A DNA stretch of 34,443 nt, taken from contig CANFOW010000017.1 of the NCBI GenBank assembly GCA_947448865.1, forward strand, positions 1-34,443, in the 5' to 3' direction. This DNA comes from Actinomycetota bacterium. Lineage in GTDB: Bacteria; Actinomycetota; Actinomycetes; S36-B12; UBA5976. The notes under the pieces are model-generated. The model was given only the letters and a program-made list of their open reading frames with translations. It was not told the origin of the DNA and did no database searches. Shown in pieces: positions 1,973 through 25,045 of this stretch. The stretch's first letter is position 1. Each line of letters begins with the position of its first letter. A program made the position numbers and the translations under genes.

Positions 1973-3250
1973 GTGAGTGCGCCGCTGGAAGTCATCGTTG
2001 GAGAAAACGATCGAGTGAAACTTCGGCAATTGCGCAGAATGAAATCGGTAGCCGCTGGTTTCCTTCTCTTTGCAGCTGTTGTTTATTTAGTCGCCTTGCG
2101 TGCCGAACATCATGGCGGCGCAGCGTGGGTTGGATACATACGAGCGGCTGCAGAAGCCGGAATGGTTGGCGGACTTGCAGATTGGTTTGCAGTCACTGCA
2201 CTTTTTCGGCACCCACTTGGTATCCCGATTCCACACACGGCGATAATTCCGCAACGTAAAGACGCTATCGGGGCAAGTCTGGGTTCATTTGTCAGTGAGA
2301 ATTTCCTGAGTGAAGACGTCATTCGCACCAAGCTGTCATCTTTAGATCTAGGAAAAATGCTTGGAGAATTTCTCAGCGTAGAAAGCAATGCGCAAAAAGT
2401 GACAAAAGAAATATCAGGTGTTATCCATTGGCTCGACGAACTTGGTGACGACGAACAGATCTCGCAACTGATTGATGACACATTCAAGCGGTTGGTGAAC
2501 AAGTTTGATGTGTCAGGACCACTTGCCGCACTGCTCGAGACCTCGCTTGAACATAACGCCCATCAACCAGTTATCGACTTGTTGGCTGGCGCTCTGGAAG
2601 ACCACCTGCGAAGCGATCCACAACGCGCACAAGGGTGGTTCAATGAACAACTACCTCGCTGGATTCCAGGCGTTGGCAAGGACCTCGCGGGTGAATGGAT
2701 TTATAACCGCATCATTGAATGGTGCACGGATGTGCGCGCAGATGTAGACCATCCACTTCGAGATTCAATTAGTCGATGGCTGGCTAAATACGCCAAACGC
2801 ATGCGAACAAATCGCGCGTTGAAGGCGCGCATTAACGAAATCAAAATGTCACTGGCCAATAATCCACAAATTAAGGCAGCAATTTCTGACATGTGGCTCT
2901 CGGCCAAAGAGACACTTGCACGAGATTCGCAAAACCCAGATAGCCCGCTGCGTATTCGCACTACGCAGATGTTGGTGACTGCGGGAAACTCACTTTTAGA
3001 TGACGAAAAAATGAGAAATGCTGTAGATGAAACCATTGCAGATCTTGCATCGCATGTTGTGAATAATTACCGCAATGACATTACGGGTATCATCACAGAT
3101 ACAGTTGCCCGCTGGGATGCCGATGACACGTCGCGAAAAATTGAATTACAAGTTGGGCGAGACCTTCAGTACATCCGATTGAATGGAACTCTGGTCGGTG
3201 CTCTTGCAGGTGCTGCTATTTACGCTGTGGGGCAGTTAGTCGTTAGTTAA
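1973..3250 (+). CDS. DUF445 family membrane protein
   Basis: This 425-aa protein belongs to the DUF445 (YjiN/YheB-like) family. A hydrophobic segment at about residues 26-43 is followed by the family signature GMVGGLADWFAVTALFRHPLG (about 63-83) and the IPHTAIIP segment. A long charged helical middle follows, and a second membrane helix closes the C-terminus (about 405-424). The topology suggests two anchors with a large soluble domain between them; the biological role is not established. The GTG at 1973 is preceded by GACCAT plus 6 nt and no Shine-Dalgarno, consistent with a leaderless start. Its last 8 bases overlap the end of the convergent sua5 gene. Confidence 0.85.
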   Translation: MSAPLEVIVGENDRVKLRQLRRMKSVAAGFLLFAAVVYLVALRAEHHGGAAWVGYIRAAAEAGMVGGLADWFAVTALFRHPLGIPIPHTAIIPQRKDAIGASLGSFVSENFLSEDVIRTKLSSLDLGKMLGEFLSVESNAQKVTKEISGVIHWLDELGDDEQISQLIDDTFKRLVNKFDVSGPLAALLETSLEHNAHQPVIDLLAGALEDHLRSDPQRAQGWFNEQLPRWIPGVGKDLAGEWIYNRIIEWCTDVRADVDHPLRDSISRWLAKYAKRMRTNRALKARINEIKMSLANNPQIKAAISDMWLSAKETLARDSQNPDSPLRIRTTQMLVTAGNSLLDDEKMRNAVDETIADLASHVVNNYRNDITGIITDTVARWDADDTSRKIELQVGRDLQYIRLNGTLVGALAGAAIYAVGQLVVS

Positions 3251-4193
3251 AGGCGGCGCGACCGAGACGATCACGTATCGCTTCAGCAAGCCCTTCTTCA
3301 TGAGGCAACACCACGTACACCGAACCGAGTCCGTCAATGTCAGCTTGGCGTAGTGCTGAGTAAAGGTCCGCGGCGTAATCCTCGATTGTGAGTGGAGCAG
3401 CGAGGCGTACTAAATGTGCAGGAGTGCTGACTTCACGAAAAGCTATGAGGCCACCTGGGGATTCAGGTATCTCATCAGAATCATTGAGAAGAATGACATG
3501 AGCATCTGGTGCATAATGCGAATCCAAATGTCCAGACACTCGAGGAGGATTCTGTGGCTCGGTCACGTTTAGACCCGTTGCCTCAGCAATCATTTTGCGC
3601 GTTACTCCGCCGGGACGTAACACAACGGGAGACTGACCAGTTGCTAACACAATTGTTGACTCGACTCCGATGAGTGATGGGCCACCGTCAAGAATCACAC
3701 CACGATGGTGATGAAGGTACTCGCCTAGGTCGGCCTGAACATGCTCGGCAGTTGTCGGCGAGACGTGACCGAATCGATTAGCACTTGGTGCGACGACACC
3801 GGGGATTCCGCGAGCCCACAGCGTTTCCAGCACAGTCAGAGTCAGTGGATGGTTCGGTACCCGAATAGCAACGGTGTCTTGCTGTCCTGTCACGGTATCC
3901 AACGCCAACGAAGTACGAGCGCCAACTAATGTGACAGGTCCGGGCCAAAATCTTTGGCCAAGTTCACGTGCCCATTCGGGAAGCGAACTCACCCAAGCCG
4001 TTGCCGAGTCAAGAGAAGGTATGTGGACGATTAACGGATGGTTCCGTGGTCGACCTTTTGCCTCAAAAACTGCCGCGATTGCCTTTTCATTGCACGCATG
4101 GGCTCCAAGCCCGTAGACCGTTTCGGTCGGAATCGCGCACAATCGTGCATCCGCAATGACGTCAACTGCCAATAATGGGTCAGTGACGATCAT
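3243..4193 (-). CDS. L-threonylcarbamoyladenylate synthase, Sua5 type
   Basis: The enzyme makes threonylcarbamoyl-AMP from threonine, bicarbonate and ATP, the first step of the universal t6A37 tRNA modification. The 316-aa product has the YrdC domain at about residues 1-190, with PTETVYGLG (22-30), KGRP (46-49) and PSANRFGHVSPT (136-147). A linker SGHLDSHYAP (210-219) leads to a C-terminal Sua5 domain, so this is the long Sua5 form and not the short TsaC form. The open frame runs back to 4367, but the ATG at 4193 matches the conserved N-terminus and lies 4 nt after the antiporter stop, so the two genes form a minus-strand operon. The end overlaps the convergent DUF445 gene by 8 nt. Confidence 0.92.
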   Translation of the reverse strand: MIVTDPLLAVDVIADARLCAIPTETVYGLGAHACNEKAIAAVFEAKGRPRNHPLIVHIPSLDSATAWVSSLPEWARELGQRFWPGPVTLVGARTSLALDTVTGQQDTVAIRVPNHPLTLTVLETLWARGIPGVVAPSANRFGHVSPTTAEHVQADLGEYLHHHRGVILDGGPSLIGVESTIVLATGQSPVVLRPGGVTRKMIAEATGLNVTEPQNPPRVSGHLDSHYAPDAHVILLNDSDEIPESPGGLIAFREVSTPAHLVRLAAPLTIEDYAADLYSALRQADIDGLGSVYVVLPHEEGLAEAIRDRLGRAAFN

Positions 4194-17168: not shown

Positions 17169-18755
17169 ATGACGAATTCTGGCAAGGCGTACTACCTGAC
17201 GACCCCGATTTATTACGTGAATGATGCTCCTCACATTGGGCATGCCTACACGACAGTTGCGGGCGACGTTATGACGCGTTGGCATCGAATGGCCGGAGAA
17301 GACGTCTGGTTTCTGACTGGCACTGATGAACATGGTCAGAAAGTTTTGCGTTCTGCAGATTCCAACCATGTGACTCCACAAGTGTGGGCGGACAAACTTG
17401 TTGAGGATGCTTGGATTCCGGTTCTCAAAACAATTGACGCTGCAAATGATGATTTCATCCGGACAACACAACCTCGTCACGTAGAACGTGTTCAAAAGTT
17501 TTTATCAGGATTGCGCGACACGGGTTTCATTGTTGAAGGCGCTTATGAAGGTCCTTACTGTGTTGGCTGCGAAGAGTTCAAACTTTCTGGCGATCTGATT
17601 GAAAATGAATCGGGTGAGCAACTGTGCCCAATTCATTCAAAGCCAGTCGAGACAGTGAGTGAAACAAATTGGTTTTTCCAACTTTCACGTTTCACAGATC
17701 GTTTAATCGCTCACTACGAAGCAAATCCTCAGGCCATTAGACCTGAGTCTGCCTACAACGAAGTCATGTCCTTTCTTCGTTGTGGTCTTCAAGACTTATC
17801 AATTTCGCGTTCCACATTCGATTGGGGAATTGAAGTTCCTTGGGATACAGCGCAAGTTGTCTATGTGTGGTTTGATGCGTTACTAAATTACGCAACCGCC
17901 GTTGGCCTCGGTGATGATCCTGACTCTGATGGTGGGAAAAAGTTCGCACATACATGGCCAGCCGATGTGCATCTCGTTGGTAAAGACATTTTGAGATTCC
18001 ACGCAGTTATCTGGCCAGCCATGTTGATGGCTGCAGAGTTGCCGCTTCCCGGTTGCGTTTTTGCGCACGGCTGGTTGCTGGTTGGCGGCGAAAAAATGAG
18101 CAAGAGCAAACTCACTGGTATTTCCGCATCAAGCATTGTTGATCTTGTTGGTTCCGATGCATTCCGGTACTACTTCATGCGTGCCATTGTGTTTGGACAA
18201 GATGGTTCGTTCTCATGGGAAGATCTCGTTGCTCGGTATACCTCCGAGTTAGCGAACGGATTGGGTAACTTAGCAAGCCGCGTTCAAGCAATGGTCGGAA
18301 AATATTTCGAAGGCTCATTACCTACACCAGGTGCTTATCTGCCAGCTGATGTCGCTTTGCAGGAATTACTTGTTAGCACTGCGCGCACTGCTGATACTGC
18401 GGTACGTCAATTCGAATTTCAAACGGGAATCGTTGCTGTCAAAGAGTTCATTGATGCAGTAAATCTCTATGTCACAGAGCAACAACCGTGGGTTGTCGCG
18501 AAGGACGAATCTCAACAGGAACGACTTTCCACAATTCTTTACACAATTTGTGAATCCCTGCGAGCCATTGCGGTGATGTACGCGCCGATTATGCCTAAGT
18601 CGATGGAACAAATGTGGAATGAAATTGGCGCCACTGAATCTGGTCTATCCATGTCTTACTCCCAGGTTGCAGCATGGGGACAGTTAAAGCCGGGCGTTGC
18701 AATCACAAAGGGCGAAAGCATGTTCCCTCGCATCGAGGAACCAGTCGAAATCTAA
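17169..18755 (+). CDS. metG: Methionyl-tRNA synthetase
   Basis: This class I synthetase charges initiator and elongator tRNA-Met. The 528-aa product has the HIGH motif at residues 22-25 (APHIGHAYTT), a zinc-type knuckle region with CVGCEEF and LCPIH (about 131-157), a WFDALLNY block, and KMSKS at 309-313 within the usual GGEKMSKSK. The C-terminal anticodon-binding helix bundle is present, and no tRNA-binding EMAP-like extension follows, as in other actinobacterial MetG proteins of this size. Its end overlaps the convergent acyltransferase gene by 4 nt. The rsmI-metG-tatD order is conserved, with one gene inserted here. Confidence 0.96.
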   Translation: MTNSGKAYYLTTPIYYVNDAPHIGHAYTTVAGDVMTRWHRMAGEDVWFLTGTDEHGQKVLRSADSNHVTPQVWADKLVEDAWIPVLKTIDAANDDFIRTTQPRHVERVQKFLSGLRDTGFIVEGAYEGPYCVGCEEFKLSGDLIENESGEQLCPIHSKPVETVSETNWFFQLSRFTDRLIAHYEANPQAIRPESAYNEVMSFLRCGLQDLSISRSTFDWGIEVPWDTAQVVYVWFDALLNYATAVGLGDDPDSDGGKKFAHTWPADVHLVGKDILRFHAVIWPAMLMAAELPLPGCVFAHGWLLVGGEKMSKSKLTGISASSIVDLVGSDAFRYYFMRAIVFGQDGSFSWEDLVARYTSELANGLGNLASRVQAMVGKYFEGSLPTPGAYLPADVALQELLVSTARTADTAVRQFEFQTGIVAVKEFIDAVNLYVTEQQPWVVAKDESQQERLSTILYTICESLRAIAVMYAPIMPKSMEQMWNEIGATESGLSMSYSQVAAWGQLKPGVAITKGESMFPRIEEPVEI

Positions 18756-20557
18756 AACCCATCAAGGGCGCGCTTAACCATTGCGGCAAAAGCGCGACCA
18801 CCAGTGGGCGTGAGATGTACTCCGTCGGGAACAAAATAATCTTTGTGACCTTTTGAGGTCGCGGCCCAATCAGCAAGGCGTACATTGGGGAAATTCACGA
18901 CGATTGAATCGATCATGGCATTTGTTGGTTTCATCCATGACCGCGGCATCTGAGTATTGACGACTACAACCCGACGTCGATCACGTAGTGACTCAAGGAT
19001 GGGTTCTAAGTCTTGGCGACGGACAAGTCCATTTGTGCCCATGTGGATCACAACATCGGTGCCTAAACGATCTTGATCTCGACGAGCTTTCACATGCTGT
19101 GCAATGACTCCAGGCGAGCGACTCACAGCAGCGTCAATAGAAATTGGTCCAAGAACCTCTTTGAGACCCACGCGTCCACTGAGTACAACGGAATCGCCAA
19201 ACACCACAATGGTTCCGTGTCGCACTGGTGCCACAGATGCTTTCGGGCCAGGTTGCTCTATGAGCAGCTCAGTTGGAATTGGCGGTGGCGTGGGATCTTC
19301 ATCAATTGAGGTAATTCCATCAAGGCCGGCAAGTATTGAGGCATCGGGTGTTGGTGCCTTCGCGACTCCGATAAGACCTGCAATCAGAATTGCGCTAAAA
19401 CTCAAAGCAAGCCCACTTGATCGAATCGACAATTGCGGGCGTCCTAATAATTTCCACGATTCAATTTTTTTCTGCACAAATCCATGTCTGATAGGTAGTT
19501 CGATGTAGCGATACGACAAGTCACTTACAGCAAGCAGTAATGCAAGGCGAACGACTTGTGTGACAACGTCTGGCCACGCAACATCTATCCCAGGGCGAAG
19601 TAGATTGAACAGCGGCCAATGCCAGATGTACATTCCATACGACCGATCACCAAACCATCTCAAGATGCGATTGCCAATAACGCGTGCCCATGGCAAACCA
19701 GGATGCACAGCAATCACGATGACAACTGCAGTCAATGCACTGAGTGCAAGAAATCCACCGTGATATAAGAATGGCGTTAGTTCAGAAACGTTGCTCAGAA
19801 AATATCCAATGCCGCACAATGATCCAACTGCGACGAGGTTTAATGTTGTGCGGCGATCTGGTGTCAGTTTTGGATTGAGTTTGTGTACATCCCGCATCGA
19901 GGCCAGAAGACATCCGACTAGTAATCCCATCGCGTGCGTATCCGAGCCGAAATATGCCCGGCTTGGATCATTGGGAACTGGGAAGCCACCGCGATACGAC
20001 ACGATGCTCATCCACCACGTGCTGGCAATCACTCCAATGAGTGAAGTGACAAAGATGCTTTGTCGCAACGACACGCGAGAGATTTTGCGAAGCGCGATAA
20101 GAACAAGTGGCCAAACAAGATAGAACTGTTCCTCAATCGCGAGAGACCACAAATGTTGAAACAACGGCGGTCGAGCAATGTGAACAAAATATGATTGTGT
20201 GACCAGGATGTACGACCAGTTCAAAACAAACGTCAGAGCCCACGGCAAATCACGACGCACGCCGAAGGCGGCATCGGGAACCCATAGTCCGCTAATGACA
20301 ACAGACACGACAATCATCGCGATGAGTGCTGGAATTAATCTGCGGACTCGTCGTTTATAAAAGGCTGATCGATTTATCGTTCCGGAATGTGCAATTTCAG
20401 TAAGCAGCAGGTTTGTTATCAAAAATCCGGAGAGCACGAAAAAAATGTCGACTCCAAGAAATCCACCGTTAAGGATTCCTAAATCCGCGTGATAAAGCAC
20501 GACTGCAATGACTGCAATTCCACGCAAGCCATCGAGACCTGGTAATCGCTTTAACAC
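18752..20557 (-). CDS. Membrane acyltransferase (acyltransferase 3) with C-terminal SGNH domain
   Basis: The 601-aa protein resembles OafA-type O-acetyltransferases that modify envelope glycans. Residues 1 to about 350 are the multispanning acyltransferase-3 domain, starting RLPGLDGLRGIAVIAVVLYH with the catalytic-type His, then GVDIFFVLSGFLITNLLL and SLAIEEQFYLVWPL. After a linker (about 400-440) comes an SGNH hydrolase-like domain with VVFGDSVVLSGR (catalytic-type Ser), VVIHMGTNGLV, and DGVHLTPTGG (Asp-x2-His). The GTG at 20557 is chosen over the TTG at 20563 because AAGGG lies 6 nt upstream. It is inserted, on the opposite strand, between metG and tatD. Substrate is unknown; peptidoglycan or a surface polysaccharide is plausible. 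Confidence 0.88.
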   Translation of the reverse strand: MLKRLPGLDGLRGIAVIAVVLYHADLGILNGGFLGVDIFFVLSGFLITNLLLTEIAHSGTINRSAFYKRRVRRLIPALIAMIVVSVVISGLWVPDAAFGVRRDLPWALTFVLNWSYILVTQSYFVHIARPPLFQHLWSLAIEEQFYLVWPLVLIALRKISRVSLRQSIFVTSLIGVIASTWWMSIVSYRGGFPVPNDPSRAYFGSDTHAMGLLVGCLLASMRDVHKLNPKLTPDRRTTLNLVAVGSLCGIGYFLSNVSELTPFLYHGGFLALSALTAVVIVIAVHPGLPWARVIGNRILRWFGDRSYGMYIWHWPLFNLLRPGIDVAWPDVVTQVVRLALLLAVSDLSYRYIELPIRHGFVQKKIESWKLLGRPQLSIRSSGLALSFSAILIAGLIGVAKAPTPDASILAGLDGITSIDEDPTPPPIPTELLIEQPGPKASVAPVRHGTIVVFGDSVVLSGRVGLKEVLGPISIDAAVSRSPGVIAQHVKARRDQDRLGTDVVIHMGTNGLVRRQDLEPILESLRDRRRVVVVNTQMPRSWMKPTNAMIDSIVVNFPNVRLADWAATSKGHKDYFVPDGVHLTPTGGRAFAAMVKRALDGF

Positions 20558-20621
20558 GTGCAACCCTTCTGGATTTTCTCGGAGCTCGGGAGTCGAATCT
20601 TAGGTTAGTCCACTTGGGCAT

Positions 20622-20633: not shown

Positions 20634-21455
20634 GTGAGCGATGATGAATTTATAGAGCCGCTGGTATCACCCGTGGTGGATACGCATTGCCACATGGATG
20701 TTCATTACGACGACAATCACATTTTGCCAAGTGTTAATGATGCGTTAGCGAACGCAGCGCAGGTTGGTGTCTCCGTTGTCATGCAAGTGGGATGCGATGT
20801 CGCTAGTTCGCAATGGGCGGTTAAAACAGCGAGCGAGTATTCGAACGTGTGGGCAACAGTGGCGTTGCATCCAAATGCTGCTGCCCATGATGACAATCTT
20901 CACGATTCGTTAGCGACAATTGCTGAGTTGGCACGACTCGATGTTGTGCGTGGTATCGGCGAGACGGGTTTGGATTATTTTCGAACTCAGGAAGATCAAG
21001 CCGCGCAACAACATGAAAGTTTCAGAGCTCACATCGACATAAGTAAAGAGAACAACAAGCCGCTCATCATTCATGATCGAGACGCGCATGATGATGTCAT
21101 CAGTACCTTGCTTACCTATGGAGCACCTGACACTGTTGTCTTCCATTGCTTTTCCGGTGATAGTGATATGGCCGCAATCTGTCGTGACAATGGTTGGTAC
21201 ATGTCTTTTAGCGGTGTTGTGACGTTTAAGAATGCAATCTCACTTCGCGAAGCTTTGCTGGTAGCTCCTACGGAATTGCTTCTTGTTGAAACAGACTCAC
21301 CCTTTCTGACGCCCACTCCTTTCCGAGGCCGGCCAAATGCGTCACGTCTGATGCCCTTTACGGTGCGGACAATGGCAAGCACTCGAGGGCAATCTGAGCA
21401 AGAAATGTGTGAGGCACTTTTTTCAAATGCTGCAAGGGTTTTTGGCCCTTTTTAG
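20634..21455 (+). CDS. tatD: TatD family metal-dependent hydrolase
   Basis: TatD proteins are metal-dependent nucleases of the amidohydrolase fold, with reported DNase and RNA-processing activity. The 273-aa product has DTHCHMD (17-23, metal ligands), GETGLDYFR (about 102-110, with the bridging Glu), IHDRDAHDD (about 145-153), VFHCFSGD (about 164-171) and ETDSPFLTP (about 219-227). These are all the expected metal and catalytic positions. Between metG and the Rpf-type gene it keeps the actinobacterial order. Its last codons coincide with an intrinsic terminator hairpin. Confidence 0.94.
   Translation: MSDDEFIEPLVSPVVDTHCHMDVHYDDNHILPSVNDALANAAQVGVSVVMQVGCDVASSQWAVKTASEYSNVWATVALHPNAAAHDDNLHDSLATIAELARLDVVRGIGETGLDYFRTQEDQAAQQHESFRAHIDISKENNKPLIIHDRDAHDDVISTLLTYGAPDTVVFHCFSGDSDMAAICRDNGWYMSFSGVVTFKNAISLREALLVAPTELLLVETDSPFLTPTPFRGRPNASRLMPFTVRTMASTRGQSEQEMCEALFSNAARVFGPF
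21434..21453 (+). terminator. Intrinsic terminator embedded in the end of tatD
   Basis: AAGGG (21434-21438) pairs with CCCTT (21446-21450) around a short loop, followed by a T run to 21453 and the tatD stop at 21453-21455. The stem is short but the T tract is good. It would end tatD transcription before the secreted transglycosylase gene, implying that gene has its own promoter. Confidence 0.55.
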
Positions 21456-21497: not shown

Positions 21498-21537
21498 TGA
21501 ACTTCCAGCCTTCCCGCTTCCCACACTGGAGGATCGA

Positions 21538-22344
21538 ATGACTCAGCATGGCCGCCATCGCGCCGCTAGTCGTCCTGCCCTCCCAAAGCTTTCAAAGAGT
21601 TTTGGTATCGGCGCATCAGCCGTTGTTGTCCTGGCGGTAGGTGCTGTGGTGTTCGTTGATCATCCAATTCAGGCTCAATCCGTTCAGCCATACATTGATG
21701 TCAAGGCTCTTTACGAAGCTGATAACACAGACCTCACGTATCGCAATGTAGATGTCACTATTAATTCTGTTGTGCAAACTGAAGAAATAGATTTCAACAA
21801 GGAAGTGACGAAAGATTCGAAAATTGCGACCGGAACTGAGTTTGTACTCAAACCCGGTGTAACTGGAACCCAGGTCGTTACCTACAGTGTGAAATTTGTG
21901 GACGGCATTGAAGTCAGTCGCCACGTGGTCTCAAAGGTTGTCAAAGAGCAACCTGTTGATGCAGTCGTTATTCAAGGCACCGGCGATCCACACGACACAA
22001 AGGTCGCCTTGCAAACTGCTGCCGCTGGGGTGGGAACTCCTCAAGGCAATAAGGACTACGCACAAATCTATATTCAACAAACGTATGGCTGGAGTGACAC
22101 ACAGTTCACATGCTTGTCAAAGTTGTGGACGCGAGAAAGCAATTGGCGAACTGCTGCACACAATCGTCAATCAGGGGCACATGGAATTGCCCAAGCTCTT
22201 CCTGGTAAAAAAATGGCGACAATCGCCGAAGACTGGCGCACGAATCCGGTTACTCAAATTAAATGGGGCTCAGGCTATATCAAAGGACGTTACGGAACAC
22301 CGTGCAATGCATGGAACCATTCTGAAAATCACGGCTGGTACTAA
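21538..22344 (+). CDS. Secreted G5-domain protein with lytic-transglycosylase-like domain, in the RpfB position
   Basis: The 268-aa product begins with a basic segment and a signal or anchor helix (about residues 22-47). A G5-like beta domain follows at about 78-140 (VVQTEEIDFNKEV, GVTGTQVVTYSVKF). The C-terminal domain is a soluble-lytic-transglycosylase or APF-like fold: LWTRESNWRTAAHNRQSGAHG (putative catalytic Glu200), IAQALPGKKM and a terminal NHSENHGWY. It occupies the place of rpfB in the tatD-rpfB-rsmA-ispE order, but the catalytic domain is not the classic Rpf domain and I see no DUF348 repeats. It probably cleaves peptidoglycan outside the membrane. The ATG at 21538 has an excellent GGAGG site; the longer frame from 21409 overlaps tatD. 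Confidence 0.86.
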   Translation: MTQHGRHRAASRPALPKLSKSFGIGASAVVVLAVGAVVFVDHPIQAQSVQPYIDVKALYEADNTDLTYRNVDVTINSVVQTEEIDFNKEVTKDSKIATGTEFVLKPGVTGTQVVTYSVKFVDGIEVSRHVVSKVVKEQPVDAVVIQGTGDPHDTKVALQTAAAGVGTPQGNKDYAQIYIQQTYGWSDTQFTCLSKLWTRESNWRTAAHNRQSGAHGIAQALPGKKMATIAEDWRTNPVTQIKWGSGYIKGRYGTPCNAWNHSENHGWY

Positions 22345-22352
22345 ATAGTTTT

Positions 22353-23207
22353 ATGTCACAAGTACAACTTCTTGGCGCAACGGAGATTCGTCGACTCGCA
22401 GAACTCGTCGGAGTTAGCCCATCCAAGAAGTGGGGCCAAAACTTTGTTATTGATCCCAACACAGTGCGACGCATTGTTGACCAAGCACATGTTGGTGCAA
22501 CAGATACGGTCGTTGAAATTGGACCGGGCCTCGGATCGTTAACACTCGCGTTACTCGACACTGCAGCACATGTTGTGTGCGTTGAAATTGATCCTGCGTT
22601 AGCAACTCAGTTGCCATTAACAATTGCGCAGCATGCTCCGAGTCGACAGCACGCGCTGACAGTTTTTAATGCAGACGCCATGACTATTACCGATTTGGAA
22701 TGTGAGCCAACAAAACTCGTAGCGAATCTCCCGTACAACGTCGCAGTACCCGTAGTACTTAATTTTCTTGAACGATTCCATTCCATCGCAGAAGTTCTCG
22801 TTATGGTTCAAGCCGAAGTCGCTGATCGCCTAGCCGCAAAGTCAGGCAACAAGACGTACGGTGTGCCAAGCGTGAAAGCGCAGTGGTACGGCGAGGTGAC
22901 TAAAGCTGGATCCATTGGGCGAAATGTTTTTTGGCCAGCTCCCAATGTGGATTCGGGATTAGTCCGCATTGTTCGCCGAGATCAACCAGGGGATGACACT
23001 TTACGTCGAGAAGTTTTTGGGTTGATTGACTCGGCGTTTGGACAGCGACGCAAAACTATTCGTACGGCTTTGGGTTCTTCTCTGGGTGCACCAGCGCGAG
23101 TTGAGGAGATAGTCACTCGAGCTGGTGTGCTACCGAGTGCGCGTGGTGAGCAACTTGAATTGCAAGATTTTGTATCCATCGCTCTGGCAGCTCGAGAAGT
23201 ACAGTAA
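22353..23207 (+). CDS. rsmA: 16S rRNA (adenine1518/1519-N6)-dimethyltransferase
   Basis: RsmA (KsgA) dimethylates the two adjacent adenines in the terminal hairpin of 16S rRNA, a late ribosome-assembly checkpoint. The 284-aa product shows KKWGQNFVIDPNTVRRIV at the N-terminus, the SAM motif EIGPGLGSLTLALL (about 51-64), VCVEIDPALA, and the catalytic NLPYNVAVPV (about 125-134). The C-terminal FGQRRKTIRTAL block is also present. It starts 8 nt after the transglycosylase gene and is probably cotranscribed with it. A methyltransferase and ispE following a secreted cell-wall protein is the standard actinobacterial order. Confidence 0.95.
   Translation: MSQVQLLGATEIRRLAELVGVSPSKKWGQNFVIDPNTVRRIVDQAHVGATDTVVEIGPGLGSLTLALLDTAAHVVCVEIDPALATQLPLTIAQHAPSRQHALTVFNADAMTITDLECEPTKLVANLPYNVAVPVVLNFLERFHSIAEVLVMVQAEVADRLAAKSGNKTYGVPSVKAQWYGEVTKAGSIGRNVFWPAPNVDSGLVRIVRRDQPGDDTLRREVFGLIDSAFGQRRKTIRTALGSSLGAPARVEEIVTRAGVLPSARGEQLELQDFVSIALAAREVQ
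23200..23205 (+). promoter_or_regulatory. Internal -10 box before ispE
   Basis: TACAGT is followed by 7 nt and the ispE GTG at 23213. It overlaps the rsmA stop region, so ispE may have an internal leaderless promoter as well as readthrough from upstream. Confidence 0.4.
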
Positions 23208-23212
23208 CTGTT

Positions 23213-24118
23213 GTGAGTGCGTCAGTAACCGTTCGGGTCCCAGCGAAAGTCAATCTGTACCTTGGCGTTGGCCCGCGCAAAGATGACGGCTTCCATGATC
23301 TTGCGACTGTTTTTCAGGCGCTCAGTGTTTATGACGAAGTCACTGTCACACAAAGTGATTCTTTGTCGATTACTGCCACAGGTCGACTTGCGGATCTCGT
23401 GCCAACAGACAAAACCAATTTGGCATGGAAGGCTGCCGAACTCGTTGCACAGGCCTATTCACGAAGTCCAGATGTTCACATCACAATAGATAAAAATATT
23501 CCTGTCGCAGCAGGACTTGCTGGCGGAAGTGCAGATGCGGCAGCGGCCATTGTTGCGTGCAACAGTGTGTGGGGGAATGAACTGTCTCGCGATGCTATGC
23601 ACAACATTGCGCGACAACTTGGGTCAGATGTGCCGTTCATGTTGCAAGGTGGCGTTGCGTTAGGTTCCGGCCGCGGTGATCAACTATCTGCAGTTATGGC
23701 GCGGGGAACTTTTCATTGGGTGCTTGCCACGTTTTCGCATGGTTTATCAACGCCAGAAATGTATTCCCGCTTAGATGAGCAACGTGGTGCGACATTTAAT
23801 CGAACTCCGCAGGTACCTGACGAGATTATGTTTGCGCTCGCTCGCGGAGATGCTGCTGAATTAGCGCGTGCGCTCCACAATGATTTACAGAGTGCTTCGA
23901 TTTCGGCTCGTCCGAGTTTGCAAGATGTTTTGACTTTTGGGCGTGAACATGGCGCACTCGGTTCACTTATCTCGGGTAGTGGTCCGACATGTGCGTTCTT
24001 GGTTGCCTCGGAATCCAAAGCAATTGATCTCGTCGTTGCGTTTTCGAGTTCAGGTCTCGTTGATACTGCGATACACGCTCACGGTCCTGTGCCAGGCGCC
24101 AGAGAAATTAGTGAGTAA
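23213..24118 (+). CDS. ispE: 4-diphosphocytidyl-2-C-methyl-D-erythritol kinase
   Basis: IspE phosphorylates CDP-methylerythritol in the MEP pathway of isoprenoid precursor synthesis, so the organism makes IPP by the non-mevalonate route. The 301-aa GHMP kinase has VPAKVNLYLGVGPRKDDGFHDL at the start (about 8-29; the Lys and Asn are substrate contacts), the ATP loop PVAAGLAGGSADAAAAI (about 96-112), GSDVPFML, and a C-terminal GSLISGSGPTCAFLV. The GTG at 23213 gives the usual N-terminus. It lies 5 nt after rsmA, and the convergent TetR gene ends 30 nt beyond its stop. Confidence 0.94.
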   Translation: MSASVTVRVPAKVNLYLGVGPRKDDGFHDLATVFQALSVYDEVTVTQSDSLSITATGRLADLVPTDKTNLAWKAAELVAQAYSRSPDVHITIDKNIPVAAGLAGGSADAAAAIVACNSVWGNELSRDAMHNIARQLGSDVPFMLQGGVALGSGRGDQLSAVMARGTFHWVLATFSHGLSTPEMYSRLDEQRGATFNRTPQVPDEIMFALARGDAAELARALHNDLQSASISARPSLQDVLTFGREHGALGSLISGSGPTCAFLVASESKAIDLVVAFSSSGLVDTAIHAHGPVPGAREISE

Positions 24119-24974: not shown

Positions 24975-25045
24975 TCCCGGTTCGTCTAATGGCAGGACAG
25001 CACCCTTTGGAGGTGCTTATCGTGGTTCGAATCCACGACCGGGAG
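24975..25045 (+). tRNA. tRNA-Gln (anticodon TTG)
   Basis: A complete cloverleaf can be drawn. The acceptor stem is TCCCGGT with ACCGGGA, followed by discriminator G. The anticodon stem GCACC/GGTGC holds the loop CTTTGGA, giving anticodon TTG (reads CAA, Gln). The T arm CGTGG/CCACG encloses TTCGAAT. The variable loop is 4 nt. CCA is not encoded (GCA follows the stem). It sits directly upstream of glmU, as in many actinobacteria, and no terminator separates the two. Confidence 0.95.

Follow-up and report, generated by a model that had tools for sequence, protein, structure and literature searches.

A G5 protein with an aggregation-promoting-factor-like C-terminal domain in the rpfB slot of an Actinomycetota genus

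The position between tatD and rsmA known as the rpfB slot is a marker of growth-resuscitation enzymes. In the genome considered here it is occupied by a gene whose 268-residue product combines a single G5 domain with the C-terminal-like domain of aggregation-promoting factors (APF), and in which the classic Rpf domain (PF06737) has no match up to E=10. The gene lies in a stretch of 34,443 nucleotides from an Actinomycetota bacterium (contig CANFOW010000017.1), which is called the window below. This is a real and conserved gene, whose architecture belongs to a type that is common in parts of the actinobacteria. We consider it likely, with a probability of about 0.8, that the product is a G5-APF member of the muralytic enzymes of the RpfB locus: a protein exported or anchored, held at the wall and cutting peptidoglycan, most likely as a lytic transglycosylase, in the course of wall remodeling. 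Searches that rely on PF06737 only will miss lineages with an APF-type enzyme in this slot. Of greater interest is that the catalytic end seems to have been exchanged repeatedly at this one locus.

The gene, its neighbors and its N-terminal part

The features to which the text refers are as follows, all on the forward strand of the window.

20634..21455, +, tatD, marker on the 5' side of the slot (PF01026, 237 bits)
21527..21533, +, Shine-Dalgarno-like TGGAGGA ahead of the ATG at 21538, putative, from reading of the sequence
21538..22344, +, gene for the G5-APF protein, 268 aa, in the rpfB slot (G5 and NF052397 profile matches)
21601..21657, +, hydrophobic N-terminal segment, about residues 22-40, behind a basic start (reading of the translation)
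21769..21981, +, G5 domain, residues 78-148 (PF07501, 62.6 bits, cut-off 23)
22030..22341, +, lysozyme-fold domain as modeled, residues 165-268 (AlphaFold2, mean pLDDT 95.9)
22102..22341, +, APF C-terminal-like domain, residues 189-268 (NF052397, 118.7 bits, E 1.1e-34)
22135..22137, +, Glu200, putative catalytic acid in an ES motif (conservation, with the role taken from the SLT motif)
22353..23207, +, rsmA/ksgA (RrnaAD), marker on the 3' side of the slot (PF00398, 167.6 bits)
23213..24118, +, GHMP kinase at the ispE position (PF00288 and PF08544)

Pfam matches confirm the run of tatD, the gene, rsmA and a kinase at the ispE position, from which an earlier note on this DNA had recognized the rpfB slot, and in the window's genome (1.75 Mb, 88.4% complete) the G5-APF gene is the sole occupant of that slot. 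The ATG at 21538 was taken as the start, with GGAGG directly 5' of it and an N-terminus of the form M..GR.R that is kept across the genus; a longer open frame from a GTG at 21409 runs into tatD and was judged unlikely. Promoter and terminator scans gave no enrichment over shuffles, and an Rfam scan of the window, in which a riboswitch 5' of the gene was sought, returned a tRNA at 24975-25045 as its sole match. Between metG and tatD, on the opposite strand, the window also encodes a 603-aa membrane acyltransferase whose C-terminal part is long (18752-20563, minus strand; PF01757, 120 bits).

The basic start and the hydrophobic segment behind it read as a signal peptide or membrane anchor, by which the protein would be exported or anchored. 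The one G5 domain that had been reported is indeed present; it also matches, at E about 1e-4, the G5 domain in structures of RpfB from M. tuberculosis, scores 48 bits against an RpfB-G5 profile built locally, and may serve to retain the protein at the cell wall. DUF348 repeats had been described as missing, in agreement with the absence of any Pfam match to DUF348 (PF03990) up to E=10 in the 268-aa protein; a match to DUF1521 stayed below its cut-off. Of the features that define the RpfB subfamily, the gene and its product have the G5 domain and the tatD-x-ksgA-ispE gene order, the latter with Pfam-checked neighbors, and lack a DUF348 match. Since G5 and Rpf domains occur together without a DUF348 match in a same-order protein (L036) and in a protein of Actinomyces oris (P0003), loss of DUF348 does not go hand in hand with an APF end.

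The C-terminal domain and its probable activity

The C-terminal part had been read as SLT- or APF-like and as lying outside the classic Rpf family, and both statements stand. The match to PF06737 that the earlier note had named as decisive against its reading did not occur. NF052397 is a curated NCBIfam model of the APF C-terminal-like domain with a cut-off of 40 bits; the window protein matches positions 1-80 of its 80, at a level far above chance, and the two motifs that had been singled out, RESNW (residues 199-203) and SGAHGIAQALPG (residues 212-223), fall inside the matched domain. The SLT model PF01464 reaches 18.2 bits on the window protein, below its cut-off of 21.3, and exceeds that cut-off on two relatives (L166, 22.9 bits; L104, 26.1 bits). 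The best PHROG match of the window protein is annotated as "transglycosylase", and among 30 listed of 150 matching phage records many relatives are annotated as transglycosylase or endolysin, and others as glycosyltransferase, hydrolase or hypothetical protein; the full-length protein has no relative among the viral contigs searched. Across the phylum, NF052397 was found in 91 of 296 genomes at E up to 0.001, with 34 over the cut-off, and the weak matches directly 5' of rsmA in this survey include Rpf proteins.

A domain search and a fold prediction of residues 165-268 had been proposed as checks, and these returned the NF052397 match and a modeled lysozyme fold with a mean pLDDT of 95.9, respectively. 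The AlphaFold2 input comprised the window domain and 46 viral relatives. When the model was compared with the PDB, Foldseek placed lytic transglycosylases on top, with a best E-value of only 0.064. The best VIA-align match was the phi29 tail cell-wall-degrading enzyme (Z 8.5 over 101 residues, 3.2 A), followed by MltF with Z up to 8.3 and by MltC, gp144 and MltE with Z of 7.1-7.4; insect and vertebrate lysozymes reached 6.2-6.9, and non-muralytic proteins of the same fold (alpha-lactalbumin and a cellulase) 6.3-6.5. The first 18 VIA rows are all bacterial or phage wall-degrading enzymes at modest Z values, and no Rpf structure appears among the 50 rows listed, a result that excludes nothing. 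The domain is predicted, on the basis of its model, to adopt a lysozyme/lytic-transglycosylase fold. When the PDB was searched separately by sequence, with the APF alignment as query, most matches were WD-40 repeat proteins, which were taken as chance; in the two alignments inspected the single-stretch scores were close to 4 bits.

The glutamate of the ES motif, Glu200, is the same in each of the 21 proteins of the genus, in all 29 rows of a wider bacterial alignment and in all 47 rows of the alignment of the window domain with its viral relatives. By family resemblance, and by the SLT motif, which we take to be the basis for a catalytic role of this residue, Glu200 would be the catalytic acid/base with which the APF domain cuts the glycan strands of peptidoglycan, probably by lytic transglycosylation. 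Such activity would probably contribute to wall remodeling in growth or regrowth, as is thought for RpfB; a resuscitation role for the G5-APF protein would be a plausible extension. The Rpf domain is itself a lysozyme-like muralytic domain, and the APF domain appears to be another. Because both are regarded in this way, the different chemistry that had been suggested for the window protein is not implied by the replacement of one by the other.

Two other readings of the C-terminal part were weighed against that of a muralytic APF enzyme. That it is a classic Rpf domain diverged beyond recognition is scarcely credible. The two domains are distantly alike, as NF052397 scores 22.2 bits (below cut-off) on the Rpf protein L047 and 32.2 and 24.9 bits just 5' of rsmA in G098 and G060, two genomes with a G5-Rpf protein in the slot; but the window protein gives a full-length APF match against none to PF06737, and at the examined loci no protein was matched by both the local APF and the local Rpf profile (over 5 bits). 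It is also improbable, if less so, that the protein has a non-enzymatic surface or aggregation function, as might be thought of a family whose name derives from aggregation-promoting factors, for the ES motif is invariant and the predicted fold lies nearest to active lytic transglycosylases.

Distribution of the G5-APF architecture

The genes tatD and rsmA served to find the slots in related genomes, and the contents were then typed with profiles built locally. Within the window's genus, all 21 slots examined (the window and 20 congeners) hold a G5-APF protein. Elsewhere in the family 13 slots were examined, of which L025 encodes a 134-aa Rpf-only protein and the remaining 12 are empty; the order's other families contributed 23 slots, of which 20 are empty, two (L036 and L047) encode G5-Rpf proteins, and one (L041) is a gap of 815 bases between tatD and rsmA (2732-3547, reoriented strand) with no recognized G5, Rpf or APF frame. 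No tandem pair of Rpf and APF genes was seen in the examined slots of this order. Left out of the slots of the 60 related genomes were G007 (contig without rsmA), G021 and G043 (rsmA unmatched), and G031 and G054 (fragmentary). In one congener (L021, 2238-3289; UBA5976 contig DJBM01000066.1) the G5-APF gene is spread over two frames that overlap, and some 230 additional bases separate its matched parts; this reflects either an assembly fault or a broken gene.

A survey of the class covered 37 hand-picked loci (L057-L093; 35 outside the order and two inside), with one to five genomes per family, picked among the matches listed and without families f12, f15 and f21 and the same-order genome G212. 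The 35 slots beyond the window's order comprised 22 with G5-Rpf, ten empty and three unassigned, and none with G5-APF, so that the architecture is not class-wide.

Both domains also occur outside the slot. Among the 60 related genomes 31 have a PF06737 match, 11 of the 22 congeners included; the window's own genome, at its 88.4% completeness, has none. The congeners' Rpf-domain matches lie outside the slot wherever the slot was examined, for example in frames of about 140 aa at L119 (2325-2750) and L120 (2299-2715). The APF domain was followed at 25 loci away from the slot, drawn from the genus, family and order to which the window belongs (L094-L118, a subset of the APF places listed in the related genomes), and all of these are without G5. 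Four congeners (G008, G002, G004 and G003; L114-L117) encode a second, short and diverged APF protein of 129-134 aa, also without G5.

A profile of the genus proteins (A1) was searched in two further orders, that of genome G080 (343 genomes) and that of genome G144 (386 genomes). In the G080 order, G5 and APF domains occur in one protein at 11 of 30 loci (L134-L142, L144 and L145), which belong to two genera of one family, and DUF348 was confirmed in L134, the sole one scanned with Pfam; neither tatD nor rsmA was found in the flanks (up to 1.5 kb), and these loci are therefore not placed in the slot. In the G144 order, by hand count, at least about 126 genomes have a match that runs from the G5 region of A1, starting at query position 87 or earlier, to the end of the profile. 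Its best 30 loci all have G5 and APF in one protein, a sample biased towards this architecture since it consists of the best matches; within the DNA retrieved, tatD and rsmA flank 21 of them, tatD alone seven, rsmA alone one and neither one. The frames of family f103 in this order run to 272-320 aa when the first start codon is taken, and in family f99 the frame 5' of rsmA carries G5 and APF in seven of eight genomes, the eighth having APF alone at a contig edge.

The comparison of the slot across orders, which had been suggested as a check, gives no support to the view that the protein is unusual: G5-APF is frequent in the slot of the G144 order, where some of the proteins are similarly short. 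The same claim loses further ground to the existence of a curated NCBI model and to a 2005 account of RpfB-like proteins that end in a different domain (PMC1084345). With or without DUF348, the same G5-APF protein is common at the locus in another order, at times beside a G5-Rpf gene.

One such case is a cultured mouth bacterium. Actinomyces oris WVU627 (NZ_CP116225.1) has the annotated order metG, TatD, "G5 domain-containing protein", "resuscitation-promoting factor", rsmA and IspE kinase; the first gene of the pair encodes G5 and NF052397, the second (P0003) G5 and PF06737, and neither product matches DUF348. The front parts of the two proteins are 50% identical over 173 residues and their G5 domains 64%, slightly above the identity with any other full-length G5 domain of the same type in the set. 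Further tandem pairs of Rpf and APF genes were seen at L145, L179, L186, L189 and L193. The mates at L179 agree at 85%, with only 33 residues compared, and in the other four the G5 identity is only 35-47%, about equal to or below that with same-type G5 domains elsewhere. These values suggest recent exchange in at most two of the six pairs. At this locus two catalytic ends on the same G5 carrier can also be compared in a natural setting, which could be tested in A. oris, where both genes are adjacent.

Origin of the architecture and comparison with known systems

The trees on which an origin can be judged (100 columns for the APF domain and 84 for G5) are weak and poorly resolved; the p-AU tests were run on quick trees with rows thinned beforehand (L138 and L179 were out of the G5 test), and the 94-row G5 tree lacks the window's own G5, which is included in the tree used for the tests. 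The grouping of every APF-type G5 domain in one clade was rejected (p-AU 0.007), a result that points to more than one exchange of the catalytic end. On the placement of the genus APF domain the two trees conflict: the larger quick tree sets the genus apart from its relatives' stand-alone APF proteins (support 84, not starred), and the thinned tree contains a branch (support 90, not starred) that sets off the genus together with all the stand-alone rows of its relatives that were retained.

Our tentative reading, held at somewhat less than even odds, is that the conserved G5 carrier of the rpfB locus swapped its catalytic end between Rpf and APF more than once, within tandem pairs or between loci, and that the window's genus is a lineage in which the APF version prevailed and the slot's Rpf version is gone. 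A local displacement, in which an ancestral G5-Rpf protein lost its Rpf end together with DUF348 and gained the APF domain of the family's stand-alone gene, is doubtful. It agrees with the G5-Rpf proteins in the slots of L036 and L047 and the Rpf-only protein in a sister genus, with the stand-alone APF proteins without G5 in sister genera, and with the grouping of genus and stand-alone APF domains, which is already present in the thinned tree and was not rejected (p-AU 0.74). The larger APF tree, however, parts the two, and in the free G5 tree the genus G5 falls beside that of G5-APF proteins from family f102 of another order (support 84, not starred) instead of beside the order's RpfB proteins, although joining it to the latter was not rejected either (p-AU 0.43).

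We are equally doubtful of differential loss from an old tandem of G5-Rpf and G5-APF genes, of which the genus would have kept the APF gene, most of its relatives neither and many actinobacteria only Rpf. The six tandem pairs described above speak for it, as does the finding that one origin of the APF domain in all G5-APF proteins was not rejected (p-AU 0.58); against it, the examined slots of the window's order hold no pair and are mostly empty outside the genus, and the rejection of a single APF-type G5 clade makes loss alone insufficient for the data. Insertion of a whole, horizontally acquired G5-APF gene between tatD and rsmA would fit the empty slots elsewhere in the family and order and the proximity, in the free tree, of the genus G5 to G5-APF proteins of another order. 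We regard it as unlikely, as flanking homology would be needed for insertion at the exact rpfB slot and the trees that suggest it are weak.

Literature searches returned no paper joining aggregation-promoting factor with the G5 domain in actinobacteria, none on aggregation-promoting factor as a lysozyme-like transglycosylase or with a peptidoglycan hydrolase C-terminal domain, and none linking G5 domain, resuscitation-promoting factor and transglycosylase SLT. Among the closest of the proteins compared here is A. oris WP_271289486.1, which shares with the window protein the tatD neighbor, the rsmA-ispE run, one G5 domain, the NF052397 end and the lack of a DUF348 match, but is 340 aa long and is followed by a G5-Rpf gene before rsmA. 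The slot proteins of f103 resemble the window protein in length (L166, 272 aa), in G5 and NF052397 domains and in the tatD-x-rsmA order, and L166, the only one of them scanned, likewise gives no DUF348 match; they differ in belonging to a separate order of the class and in their diverged sequence. With RpfB itself (DUF348-G5-Rpf, as in M. tuberculosis) the window protein has the G5 domain, the gene slot and, by prediction, a muralytic end domain in common, whereas it has no DUF348 and APF replaces Rpf.

Ravagnani et al. (2005) describe the tatD-ksgA context of rpfB and spsB and propose a "non-orthologous domain displacement" between RpfB and YabE (PMC1084345). They recovered B. longum BL0658 and BL1227, with relatives in Streptomyces and Tropheryma, as proteins with the DUF348-G5 front of RpfB and a C-terminus that resembles only part of the Rpf domain (PMC1084345). 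Like the window protein, these have an RpfB-like front and an end only partly like Rpf; unlike it, they were detected by an N-terminal DUF348-G5 query (PMC1084345). Going by this published description, we think that their end domain is probably the APF-like one. YabE/SpsB of the Firmicutes offers a comparable arrangement, a G5-bearing protein encoded in the tatD-ksgA region with another muralytic end, the Sps domain, which according to that paper shows no relationship to Rpf, either by sequence or by secondary structure (PMC1084345).
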